A stretch of DNA of 53,007 nucleotides. It comes from an uncultured Ruminococcus sp. Lineage in GTDB: Bacteria; Bacillota; Clostridia; Oscillospirales; Acutalibacteraceae. Location: NCBI GenBank assembly GCA_902798755.1, contig CADBYC010000003.1, forward strand, positions 99,859-152,865. Direction: 5' to 3'. Within the stretch, counting starts at the first letter, position 1. Each line of letters starts with the position of its first letter. The notes below the pieces were generated by a model. The model saw only the letters and a list, made by a program, of their open reading frames with translations, did not search any database and was not told the DNA's origin. The position numbers and the translations under genes were made by a program. Shown here in pieces: positions 11,517-48,520 of the stretch.

Positions 11517-11663
11517 GGGAGCTGTCGCCGAACGCTTGCGTTACGGTGGCTGAGGTTAAAAAACTAACATATCGTCACAAAGCAAAAAACGGAAACGCTC
11601 TGCACGGCAACCCTCCGAGTCGGAACAAGTTCCGACCCACCTCCCTTAGAAAAGGGAGGCTAA
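11508..11663. repeat. Inverted pair of CTCCCTT/AAGGGAG elements after prmC
   Basis: The left copy runs from the prmC stop region through TAAGGGAGCTGTCGCCGAAC and GGTGGCTGAGG. The right copy, in opposite orientation, is CCCTCCGAGTCGGAAC-AA-GTTCCGACCCACCTCCCTTAG-AAAAGGGAGG (split by its loop). Each has an inner hairpin plus the CTCCCTT..AAGGGAG stem. The rest of 11517-11792 holds only the recA promoter. Confidence 0.75.
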
Positions 11664-25442: not shown

Positions 25443-26021
25443 ATGAACATATGTGTATACGGAGCGGCAAGCAAAAGTATTGACGCAAAATTTACCGACG
25501 CGGGCTACGACCTTGGTCTGAAGCTCGCGAAACGCGGTCACGGCTTGGTCTTCGGCGGCGGGAACGGCGGCATGATGGGAGCGGTGGCGCGCGGCGCTCA
25601 TGACAGCGGCGCACATATCATCGGTATCGCTCCGTCCTTCTTCAATATCGACGGCGTTCTCTATCCGCATTCCGACGAGGTCATCTATACCGAGACCATG
25701 CGCCAGCGCAAGCAGAAGATGGAGGACATGAGCGGGGCATTCATCGTCACGCCCGGCGGGATCGGCACCTTTGAGGAATTCTTTGAGATTCTGACCCTGA
25801 AACAGCTCGCCCGCACCGACAAGCCGCTTGTTATCCTCAATACGGCGGGTTACTACGATTCCATGCTCATGATGATGCGCCACAGCATTGAGAACAACTT
25901 CCTGACCGCTTCTACCATGGGCTTGATCTTTGTCGCCGATACTCCCGACGAGGCGCTCGACTACATTACGGATTACCGCTCGCAAGAGGTGGATATCAAG
26001 AAGCTGCGGAATGTTGAATAA
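25443..26021 (+). CDS. LOG-family (TIGR00730-type) Rossmann-fold protein
   Basis: A 192-residue protein with the LOG/lysine-decarboxylase-like motifs. The nucleotide-binding start is MNICVYGAASKSID, followed by GLVFGGGNGGMMGAVARGA and the PGGxGTxxE signature (FIVTPGGIGTFEEFFEILT). Characterised homologues are phosphoribohydrolases releasing cytokinin bases from nucleotide 5'-monophosphates; in gut Clostridia the substrate is uncertain. The stop overlaps the RAYT start as TAATG. Confidence 0.9.
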   Translation: MNICVYGAASKSIDAKFTDAGYDLGLKLAKRGHGLVFGGGNGGMMGAVARGAHDSGAHIIGIAPSFFNIDGVLYPHSDEVIYTETMRQRKQKMEDMSGAFIVTPGGIGTFEEFFEILTLKQLARTDKPLVILNTAGYYDSMLMMMRHSIENNFLTASTMGLIFVADTPDEALDYITDYRSQEVDIKKLRNVE

Positions 26022-26509
26022 TGGATAACTTCTATCGTCCAACACGCAAGCAGATTCGTATGCCGGAATTTGATTACAATTCAAACGGTGCGTATTTTCT
26101 CACGTTTTGTACCAAGGACAGGAAACCGCTGTTATCAAGCGTTTCCGTAGGGACGACCATCGGTCGTCCGCCTGATATCATTTTGACAAAATACGGTCAC
26201 ATTACAGAGGAAGCCATCAAGAATATCGAAAATGTATATCCTTCTGTTCATGTAGACAATTTCGTCATCATGCCGAATCATGTCCATCTGCTGCTTTTTC
26301 TCTACTGCGACGACGGACGAGCAATGCTCGTCCCTACGGTAGCGCGCGTCGTCCAACAACTAAAGGGCGTTATTACCAAGCATATTGGATATTCTATATG
26401 GCAAACTCGGTTCTACGATCATGTGATTCGTACAGAGCGTGATTATCGTGATATATATACCTACATCGACAATAATCCTGCTCACTGGGCAGAAGATGAA
26501 TACTACTGA
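26021..26509 (+). CDS. REP-associated tyrosine transposase (RAYT, Y1/HUH family)
   Basis: A 162-residue single-strand transposase of the IS200-like RAYT group. The start motif is FDYNSNGAYFLTFCTKDRKPLL and the HUH metal site is H87-V88-H89 in VIMPNHVHLLL. The helix region IWQTRFYDHVIRTERDYRDIYTYIDNNP has several candidate catalytic tyrosines (Y132, Y142, Y146, Y148). RAYTs cut and move REP palindromes. Two such palindromes lie in this gene at 26145-26169 and 26315-26339, coding for SVGTTIGRPP and DDGRAMLVPTV, in inverted orientation around the HUH segment. It uses more A/T-ending codons than its neighbours, suggesting separate origin. No IS ends are evident, as usual for RAYTs. Confidence 0.9.
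   Translation: MDNFYRPTRKQIRMPEFDYNSNGAYFLTFCTKDRKPLLSSVSVGTTIGRPPDIILTKYGHITEEAIKNIENVYPSVHVDNFVIMPNHVHLLLFLYCDDGRAMLVPTVARVVQQLKGVITKHIGYSIWQTRFYDHVIRTERDYRDIYTYIDNNPAHWAEDEYY
26145..26169 (-). repeat. REP hairpin inside RAYT (left, inverted)
   Basis: CCGTAG then GGACGACC-ATC-GGTCGTCC, an 8-bp perfect stem with 3-nt loop. As its reverse complement it is hairpin plus tail CTACGG, the same as the copies at 48251-48275 and 48398-48422 apart from the loop. It encodes about residues 42-50. Confidence 0.9.
26315..26339 (+). repeat. REP hairpin inside RAYT (right)
   Basis: GGACGAGC-AAT-GCTCGTCC then CTACGG. It is a perfect 8-bp stem with the same tail, opposite in orientation to the left copy. 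One compensated base pair differs (C-G to G-C at the stem top). It encodes about residues 99-107. Confidence 0.9.
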
Positions 26510-35866: not shown

Positions 35867-36568
35867 ATGAAGCCCAATATCACCACCATTCCGATCAGCG
35901 ACCTTTTTGCTCAGACTGAGGGCTGTCCGATCTGCCGTATGTACCGGATGCTTGAGGAACAGTACACCGAGTACATCACAGGCGCGGCGATGATGGCGCC
36001 CGACGTGCGCGTACAGACCAACAAGGTCGGCTTCTGTCACCGCCATTTCTCGATGATGGTCAACAACGGTCCCCGCCTGTCAAACGCCCTGCTCCTGCAA
36101 ACGCATATCGACGAGCTGAGGAAGAAGGCGTTCCCGAAAAAGGAGACCGACGCGCCTGACAAGAAGAATCTCGCCGCCATCCGAGAGAACGCGCATACCT
36201 GCTATGTCTGCGACCGTATCGAGCACGATATCCTGCACCTGCTCGCGACTGTCTACGTCCAGTTCGGCGCGGACAGCGACTTCCGCAGGCAGTACGCCGC
36301 GCAGGACTTCATCTGTCTTGACCACTACGCCCTCGTCACCTCGAGCTTCAACAAAAAGGCGATGGACAAGCAAACGGCGCAGGAATTCTTCAGAGTGACC
36401 AACAAGCTCTCTAAGGGCTACATGGACACGCTGTATGACGACGTCACCCACTTCACCACCATGTTTGACTACCGCAACGCGGGCGGCGACTACAAAAACA
36501 GCAAAGACGCCATCGAGCGCTCGGTGCGCTTCCTGACGTCTTATCCTGTGGATGAAAATCTGAAGTAG
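35867..36568 (+). CDS. DUF6062 family protein with two CxxC motifs
   Basis: A 233-residue cytosolic protein with GCPICRMYRMLEEQYTEYI near the start, GFCHRHFSMM, and in the middle CYVCDRIEHDILHLLATV. The CxxC and Cys/His pattern suggests metal binding. It resembles DUF6062 proteins of Clostridia, which have no known function. GGAGG precedes the ATG at 35867, and TATAAT at 35805-35810 may be its -10. It converges on truB; both stop codons touch the palindrome at 36568-36598. Confidence 0.75.
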   Translation: MKPNITTIPISDLFAQTEGCPICRMYRMLEEQYTEYITGAAMMAPDVRVQTNKVGFCHRHFSMMVNNGPRLSNALLLQTHIDELRKKAFPKKETDAPDKKNLAAIRENAHTCYVCDRIEHDILHLLATVYVQFGADSDFRRQYAAQDFICLDHYALVTSSFNKKAMDKQTAQEFFRVTNKLSKGYMDTLYDDVTHFTTMFDYRNAGGDYKNSKDAIERSVRFLTSYPVDENLK

Positions 36569-36598
36569 AGAGGCTCCCTTTACCAAAGGGAGCCTCTC
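36568..36598. repeat. CTCCCTT/AAGGGAG palindrome between convergent genes
   Basis: GAGAGGCTCCCTTT pairs perfectly with AAAGGGAGCCTCTC around a 3-nt loop. Its ends overlap the stop codons of the DUF6062 gene (TAG 36566-36568) and truB (TGA, 36597-36599). It lacks a proper U-tract on either side, so it may stabilise 3' ends rather than terminate. Confidence 0.85.
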
Positions 36599-38810: not shown

Positions 38811-38861
38811 TCATTGCGAGGCAAGCCTCCCTTTACCAAAGGGAGAATCTCGCAATGACAA
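38811..38861. repeat. Nested repeat: CTCCCTT palindrome inside an ATTGCC element
   Basis: The outer part is GTCATTGCGAG...CTCGCAATGAC, so the ATTGCC family ends face each other. The inner part is GCCTCCCTTTACCAAAGGGAG of the other family. It occupies the whole infB-rbfA gap within the operon. Confidence 0.8.
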
Positions 38862-42978: not shown

Positions 42979-43066
42979 TATGTTTCTCGCTACGCTCAAT
43001 CAAATCATGCAATCCCTCCGAGTTCGCTTAACGCGAACCCACCTCCCTTTACCAAAGGGAGGCTTT
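42979..43066. repeat. CTCCCTT/AAGGGAG element between rimP and nusA
   Basis: Contains TCTCGCTACGCTCAATCA, AATCCCTCCGAGTTCGC-TTAA-CGCGAACCCACC (inner hairpin GTTCGC/GCGAAC) and CTCCCTTTACCAAAGGGAGG. It lies in the operon within the rimP-nusA gap and ends at the rimP stop. Confidence 0.8.
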
Positions 43067-45647: not shown

Positions 45648-45691
45648 TCCCTCACCCGCTCCCGCGGGAGCTCCCTTTACCAAAGGGAGCC
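45648..45691. repeat. CTCCCTT/AAGGGAG element overlapping the mnmA 3' end
   Basis: CCCTCACCCGCTCCCGCGGGAGCTC then CCCTTTACCAAAGGGAGCC (written apart). Read on the minus strand it encodes the last residues of MnmA and its TGA. Confidence 0.85.
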
Positions 45692-48118: not shown

Positions 48119-48520
48119 CACGGTAAGCGACGTTTATCGGAAGGGTTTCGGTACGTCGCAAGCGCCGTACCCTACAAATTGTTCATCTGCTTTGCATGTA
48201 AACAGCATAAGCAGGTAAGGTAACGGACGACCAATGGTCGTCAAGGTAACGGACGACCAATGGTCGTCCCTACGGCTGTGTTGATTTTCTTTACGGTAAA
48301 CGGCGTTTGATGGAAAGGTTTCGGTACGTCGCAAGCGCCGTACCCTACAAATTGTTCATCTGCTTCGCATGTAAACAGCATAAGCAGGTAAGGTAACGGA
48401 CGACCAATGGTCGTCCCTACGGCTGTGTTGATTTGCTTTACGGTAAACGGCGTTTGACGGAAAGGTTTCGGTACATCGCAAGCGCTGTACCCTACAAATT
48501 GTTGAGCTGCTTTGCATTCG
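48119..48520. repeat. 147-bp tandem array carrying RAYT-type REP hairpins
   Basis: Two and a half to three units begin with (T)ACGGTAAACGGCGTTT at about 48120, 48294 and 48441. The period is 147 bp, plus a 26-bp internal duplication in the first unit. Each unit has hairpin 1, GGTACGTCGC-AA-GCGCCGTACC with tail CTAC. Units one and two also have hairpin 2, GGACGACC-AAT-GGTCGTCC with tail CTACGG (48225-48242 without tail, 48251-48275, 48398-48422). Open frames through it are by-products of a period divisible by three. The rest of 47998-48711 holds the glgP terminator and one ATTGCC element. Confidence 0.85.

Follow-up and report, generated by a model that had tools for sequence, protein, structure and literature searches.

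A clostridial RAYT gene with an in-frame pair of REPs from its host's own family: a candidate REPtron moved inside the coding sequence

A RAYT/TnpAREP gene carrying two REP hairpins within its own reading frame was found in a window of 53,007 nucleotides (the whole stretch of DNA analysed here) from an uncultured Ruminococcus sp. On balance, we consider it probable that this is a RAYT whose cognate REP pair sits in frame in two surface loops and not beside the gene, as if a REPtron had been moved inside. At the level of sequence, this reading is carried by two fixed sites, a head-out orientation, concerted change of the two REPs, an association with the REP family dispersed in the host, and co-variation with the putative REP-binding helix. 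A broader proposal, in which the internalised REPtron comes with a readable recognition code and forms a minimal self-seeding unit with its ends inside the coding sequence, is put forward as a serious but tentative possibility.

The product of the open reading frame is a Y1 HUH protein with the features of a RAYT/TnpAREP: an HUH motif, a single tyrosine in Y---NP, and the TnpAREP fold (Table 1). A profile of the protein and its homologs matched the E. coli TnpAREP structure 4er8 (E 2.8e-12), and the same entry was the best Foldseek match of the structural model (mean pLDDT 87.9; E 4.0e-7). The Pfam Y1_Tnp score was 18.4 bits, below the cut-off of 23, and the gene was missing from the listing of the Pfam search of its own genome; Pfam-based family counts can therefore miss this RAYT group. 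Its NHVH, WQ, and YIDNNP motifs agree with the NH[IFV]H, WQ, and YIxNNP given for subclass 2.4/group 4 in Table 1 of PMC6006769, in the part of that source available, and the REPs lie in frame inside the gene, as in that subclass. We therefore class the gene as a group-4/subclass-2.4-type RAYT, an assignment made by motifs and in-frame REPs. When the genome was searched with the protein, a second RAYT (L034) was returned, which is 77% identical and carries the same kind of embedded REP pair, together with four weak matches (E 0.04-0.18).

Table 1 Features of the RAYT gene and of its REP family in the window.
Feature	Position	Strand	Remarks
RAYT/TnpAREP gene	26021..26509	+	162 aa; NHVH (86-89), WQ (127-128), YIDNNP (148-153)
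Embedded REP A	26145..26169	+	CCGTAG + GGACGACC-ATC-GGTCGTCC; 19-nt hairpin; GACC subtype
NHVH codons (residues 86-89)	26276..26287	+	between REP A and REP B; from sequence and translation
Embedded REP B	26315..26339	-	GGACGAGC-AAT-GCTCGTCC + CTACGG; 19-nt hairpin; GAGC subtype
Helix 107-122	26339..26386	+	aligns with REP-binding helix alpha3 of E. coli TnpAREP
Free REP copy, RAYT's family	48251..48275	-	
Free REP copy, RAYT's family	48398..48422	-	

A preliminary description of this DNA had placed two in-frame hairpins in the transposase gene, in opposite orientation and spanning 195 bp around the H87-V88-H89 codons, and both the coordinates and this arrangement were borne out: REP A and REP B are in frame, point head-out, and enclose the HUH motif. 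From GTAG onward, REP A encodes VGTTIGRP (residues 43-50), and residues 43-51 form a modelled loop between strands 39-42 and 52-55. REP B covers codons 99-106 plus the first base of codon 107 and lies immediately before helix 107-122. The two free copies singled out earlier do equal the embedded REPs in stem length, loop length, and foot. The compensated change reported in one stem is real (seventh pair, C-G to G-C), but a second REP subtype is a better reading of it than random drift: 12 of the 14 other close pairs in the own-genome loci examined join a GACC-type with a GAGC-type REP.

Searching the genome for CCGTAGGGACGA with at most one mismatch gave 91 matches, compared with 6 for a reversed-pattern control. 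The full hairpin pattern GTAGGGACGANCNNNGNTCGTCC gave 94 matches against 0 for the control, four of them in the two RAYT genes, and hairpin-pattern searches with the wrong loop length gave none. The embedded hairpins and their dispersed family are far beyond chance. In the 30 own-genome loci examined, 16 distinct head-out pairs less than 300 bp apart were present; two were the RAYT genes, and the subtype combination of 12 of the remaining 14 is that of both RAYT genes. Those 14 pairs span 107-115 bp; measured from GTAG to CTAC, the pair in the gene extends over 191 bp. By orientation, subtype pairing, and the 94 genome matches, the embedded hairpins are two inverted REPs of one genome-dispersed family, the make-up of a REPIN, and the proposal that the gene itself is a REPIN is supported in the sense of a REPIN-like pair belonging to the host's own REP family. 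When the two subtypes were looked for in a further genome (G003), both were present; apart from the pair in the RAYT gene, a single close head-out pair was seen there, made of unlike subtypes.

The homologous loci used for comparison were the best 80 of at least 440 matches and are biased to this clade; 50 of them supplied the 50 further genomes that, with the window's own, make up a set of 51. A first census of 72 of 82 genes found GT[AG]G-footed hairpins at both sites in 42, at A only in 2, at B only in 12, and at neither in 16, the ten genes left out being eight cut by a contig end or stop and two (L077 and L089) failing the motif pattern. A profile search then found RAYTs in 51 of 51 genomes, as expected from the way the genomes were chosen. 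After duplicate removal, 122 gene pieces remained (short fragments among the matches are only partly included), and leaving out 19 gave 103 assessable genes. Both REPs were present in 73 of these, A only in 5, B only in 11, and neither in 14; with G-T pairs allowed, the numbers were 77, 3, 10, and 13. The 14 include L166, whose REPs are decayed and which counts as having both when G-T pairs are allowed, as well as L178 and L202, in which a REP lies farther upstream than the allowed stretch. Hairpins in the wrong orientation occurred at the two sites in 3 and 4 of the 103 genes, respectively. With both sites occupied in 73 of 103 genes, the embedded REP pair is, on these detections, general among the RAYT relatives examined.

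Adding the other loci, and genomes related to that of the window, enlarged the set to 152 distinct genes, of which 95 had both REPs, 30 one, and 27 none. Records from outside the Clostridia, several of which are metagenome bins whose taxon labels may err, included both REPs in Burkholderiales (L057 and L059) and a Delta proteobacterium (L053), one REP in Synergistaceae (L063 and L109) and Chloroflexi (L112), and none in a further Synergistaceae record (L085) and in Anaerolineae (L117). The preliminary description also named loops such as VGAIHESP in other Clostridia, which would suit a different REP family; L116 has this loop, and a different REP is indeed encoded at both of its sites. In L204 and L208, two genes from different genomes, additional palindromic sequence sits in REP B, and the reading frame is shifted at that point. 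Within the genus, RAYT matches at E <= 1e-15 occurred in 13 of 35 other genomes, some of them incomplete, and this patchy presence is consistent with gain or loss.

One alternative is that the REPs are passengers, tolerated in two flexible loops, refreshed by conversion from host REPs, and functionless in the gene. Such a reading is close to a suggestion in the available text of PMC6006769, according to which the protein may be little affected by the insertions, and it agrees with the location of both sites in loops of the structural model, with the frame-broken state of L204 and L208 at REP B, and with in-frame REPs known from other genes (PMC3733652, available part). We nevertheless regard it as rather unlikely, and the constancy of sites and orientation in most genes is the first point against it.

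The relation to flanking REPs is a second. Between 22508 and 28737, no hairpin with a stem of at least 8 bp was found besides the two embedded ones, so the gene does not have the flanking REPs of a REPtron. Flanks were compared in 100 of the 103 genes, counting REPs with a GTRGGG foot. REPs on both flanks were present in 5 of 14 genes without embedded REPs versus 1 of 70 genes carrying an embedded pair (Fisher p 0.0004), and REPs on any flank in 8 of 14 versus 11 of 70; the 16 genes with a single embedded REP had REPs on both flanks in 2 cases and on any flank in 8. In the five genes that lack embedded REPs and have both flanks occupied, a plus-strand REP lies upstream and a minus-strand REP downstream, with further REPs in some of them; the embedded pair is oriented in the same way. 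By a second measure, 62 of the 70 pair-carrying genes lacked a REP of the same family within about 530 bp; around the other eight, same-family REPs were clustered, at 0.26 per kb near the gene versus 0.004 per kb farther out. This trade-off between embedded and flanking REPs argues against mere passengers.

The two REPs of a gene resemble each other far more than they resemble those of other genes. Mean identity between A and B within a gene was 0.959, with identical REPs in 37 of 73 genes, compared with 0.610 between A of one RAYT and B of another in the same genome (104 comparisons, 4 identical) and 0.609 across genomes (5,152 comparisons, 20 identical). The observed mean was matched in 0 of 10,000 within-genome shuffles of 51 genes from 19 genomes, each with more than one such gene. 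Comparison of A with B showed differences in 22 of 541 stem pairs, all with pairing intact at the two sites and 0 with pairing lost, although the detector favours paired stems; imperfect hairpins can be shared too, L213 and L219 having an identical G-T mismatch at A and at B. Evidently, REP A and REP B of a gene change together. If the preferred reading is right, selection for recognition by one enzyme would keep REP A and REP B alike, possibly with conversion between copies contributing. On the passenger reading, refreshing would have to be RAYT-specific, given that RAYTs sharing a genome mostly keep different pairs (4 of the 104 comparisons being identical).

It could also be supposed that the loop peptides are conserved for protein function and that the hairpins follow from them. 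Invariance of V43 and G44 among 11 aligned homologs would suit this constraint, but all 11 had been picked with REPs; in an alignment of 67 homologs, these residues are absent from the conserved list, being neither invariant nor nearly so, and the site A stretch is without V-G in 12 of the 14 genes scored as having neither REP. The two that retain V-G are L166 and L178, each with a decayed or displaced REP. For these reasons, the apparently invariant V43-G44 is taken to be the translated GTAGGG foot. Random synonymous recoding seldom yields such stems, reaching the observed score in 522 of 14,600 trials for site A and 374 of 14,600 for site B. Frame and length also vary: reading frames among the 73 genes with both REPs are split 60, 12, and 1 at site B and 70 and 3 at site A, and hairpins are mostly 19, 20, or 22 nt long in the 152-gene set. 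A protein-loop constraint was accordingly rejected on synonymous recoding, frames, and REP-less homologs, and we hold it to be highly improbable. The preliminary description had it that REP sequence evolves as a protein loop; the direction appears to be the reverse, REPs changing as DNA units in length and frame and the loop following the REP. Loss of the hairpin in homologs through synonymous codons, named there as a point that would tell against its reading, was mostly absent; in a few homologs, such as L217 and L224 at site B, the peptide is similar and the hairpin is weaker by one base.

For the match with the host, five REP families were counted in the 51 genomes, and a REP at most 60 nt from a RAYT gene was counted as in-gene. 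At least five free copies were present in 37 of 45 genome-family cells with the family at a RAYT gene versus 34 of 210 cells without (Fisher p 2e-17), the latter class possibly holding RAYT pieces missed among short fragments; in genome shuffles, the number of such cells averaged 13.4 and never exceeded 25 of 45. All five families pointed in the same direction, the weakest being GGGCGGC (6 of 9 versus 14 of 42, p 0.013). Of the eight matching cells with fewer than five free copies, five had none (one family each in G004, G010, G012, G021, and G033). In the DNA around the gene, a REP at least 0.9 identical was found for 10 of 73 genes versus 72 of 5,152 cross-genome gene-locus pairs. In this sample, the in-gene REP predicts the family dispersed in the host. 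The embedded loops are thus, by the same 37 of 45 versus 34 of 210 cells, not unrelated to the host's REPs, which the preliminary description had named as the other adverse outcome. This association also fits passengers refreshed from the host. The main weakness is the 34 unmatched cells, which draft genomes, omitted fragments, lost RAYTs, or independence could explain.

The own genome offers a possible example of a REP family outliving its RAYT: it holds 9 copies of GTAGGGTACGGCGCTTGCGACGTACC, and a profile search found no RAYT of the GTAGGGTACGGCGCTTGCGACGTACC type in it. RAYTs of this type are carried by G026 and G027, with match coordinates equal to those of the same-genus genomes G067 and G062. 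Within the window, the GTAGGGTACGGCGCTTGCGACGTACC family lies on the minus strand at 48150-48175 and 48323-48348, alternating with the RAYT's family in a repeated block. In G028 (L066/L136), both embedded REPs are GGGACG...CGTCCC, while 7 of the 10 listed dispersed copies are GGTACG...CGTACC; this mismatch counts against the preferred reading and suggests a joint change of the two embedded REPs that either preceded that of the dispersed copies or was separate from it.

Correlations between protein regions and REPs were computed for 76 of the 77 genes with both REPs. Identity in helix 107-122 predicted REP identity best (partial rank correlation 0.31, reached in 0 of 300 shuffles), compared with 0.17 for b4, 0.09 for the N-terminal part, 0.09 for aA-b2, and -0.03 for the HUH strand adjoining REP B. 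Among 44 genes below 55% identity, helix 107-122 still came first (0.23; b4 0.16). Single columns exceeding the largest value of 100 shuffles (0.051) were 113, 116, 65, 72, 117, 109, and 112, and we read the five in the helix (109, 112/113, and 116/117) as one face of it. Column 116 aligns with K82 of the E. coli TnpAREP, a residue for which the available text of PMC8266576 gives a contact with a REP base in the crystal structure; invariant K115 falls on K81, from which the numbering in the window was derived. This link to the REP-binding helix is a further point against a passenger insertion.

In the 152-gene set, Q113 was found in 42 of 49 genes with 19-nt REPs and also in two genes with 22-nt hairpins. 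Among 19-nt REPs, stem base 6 was G in 27 of 27 copies from R116 genes and A or C in 41 of 47 from G116 genes, counts that ignore ancestry. Individual examples are L120, with R116 and GGGCGGC REPs, and L125, with M116 and GGGCGATTC REPs. On a tree built without the loops and helix 107-122, residue 116 had three independent supported pairs, on average 2.6 of them the predicted way and none opposite (median p 0.25), and residue 113 had five, on average 2.8 the predicted way and almost none opposite (median p 0.25); neither result is significant. The relation of residues 113 and 116 to hairpin length and stem base 6 is therefore presented as an apparent recognition code with thin tree-aware support.

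We propose that the encoded HUH/Y1 nuclease would bind and nick the embedded REPs as single strands, in the manner of the E. coli TnpAREP and its REPs. The pair would replace the flanking REPs of an ordinary REPtron and physically link enzyme and substrate, and a transferred gene would thereby bring its own REP seed to a new host. Against an internalised REPtron counts the fact that excision between the REPs would remove the HUH codons. When exchange of the HUH segment through the REP pair was looked for, interior and exterior identity in 76 genes gave a correlation of 0.35, and 6 of the 8 outliers printed involve the truncated L051. Autoregulation was suggested in the preliminary description; in this putative scheme the protein would limit its own synthesis by binding either the mRNA, at the sense-strand hairpin of REP A, or the gene as single-stranded DNA. 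It seems distinctly unlikely: REP A is sense-oriented in the mRNA and both REPs have the GTAG foot, but REP B in the mRNA is a reverse-complement REP, and TnpAREP proteins are described in the available part of PMC8266576 as strand-specific on single-stranded DNA, with iREP not processed.

Known systems are compared here as they appear in the available portions of the cited papers. In-frame REPs in subclass-2.4 genes have been called a unique feature, generally located between HuH and Y (PMC6006769). The present genes share with that subclass (Bertels group 4; Quentin et al., 2018, PMC6006769) the NHVH, WQ, and YIxNNP motifs, the in-frame REPs, and the GTAG foot; they differ from the description in having a second fixed site before the HUH motif, so that a head-out pair results, and in REPs that agree with each other, with the host, and with the REP-binding helix. 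A REPtron, a tnpAREP flanked by REPs (PMC8266576), likewise has one RAYT, its own REP family, and the head-out orientation, whereas here the REPs are within the coding sequence and REPs on both flanks occur in 1 of 70 pair-carrying genes. The two inverted REPs, and the two-subtype make-up of most other close pairs here, are like a REPIN (PMC3116915); the spacer is different, being coding sequence with the HUH motif, and so is the span (191 versus 107-115 bp). Intragenic REPs have been reported in other genes, and these and the Rickettsia palindromic elements are in-frame palindromic insertions too (PMC3733652), but here the carrier gene is the likely enzyme for the element and the positions are common to distant relatives. 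In PMC6006769, PMC3733652, PMC8266576, and the other literature as available, no statement was found on a pair of REPs at two fixed sites, on their joint change, on the link to the helix, or on the apparent recognition code; supplements or the 2017 group-4 paper may hold them.

Genes with their own REP pair would provide dozens of putative enzyme-substrate pairs, independent of neighbourhood. For most RAYT groups, the basis of REP choice is not known to have been settled. Three RAYT/REP pairs were analysed in PMC8266576, and REP recognition has been described there, in the part available, for two other RAYT groups. If the reading given here is true, RAYT and REP are matched without guessing, and a recognition code could be read by comparison and tested with natural proteins. 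These genes would also be a clear case of protein sequence set in part by a DNA element, one that is the probable target of the encoded enzyme, and they suggest a route by which a REP family could reach a new host together with its enzyme.

Elsewhere in the window, a CTCCCTTT-ACC-AAAGGGAG hairpin with no GTAG foot is repeated at 36568-36598, 38827-38845, 43042-43062, and 45670-45690. Similar hairpins lie at 11640 and 16799, and together they look like another dispersed palindromic family.
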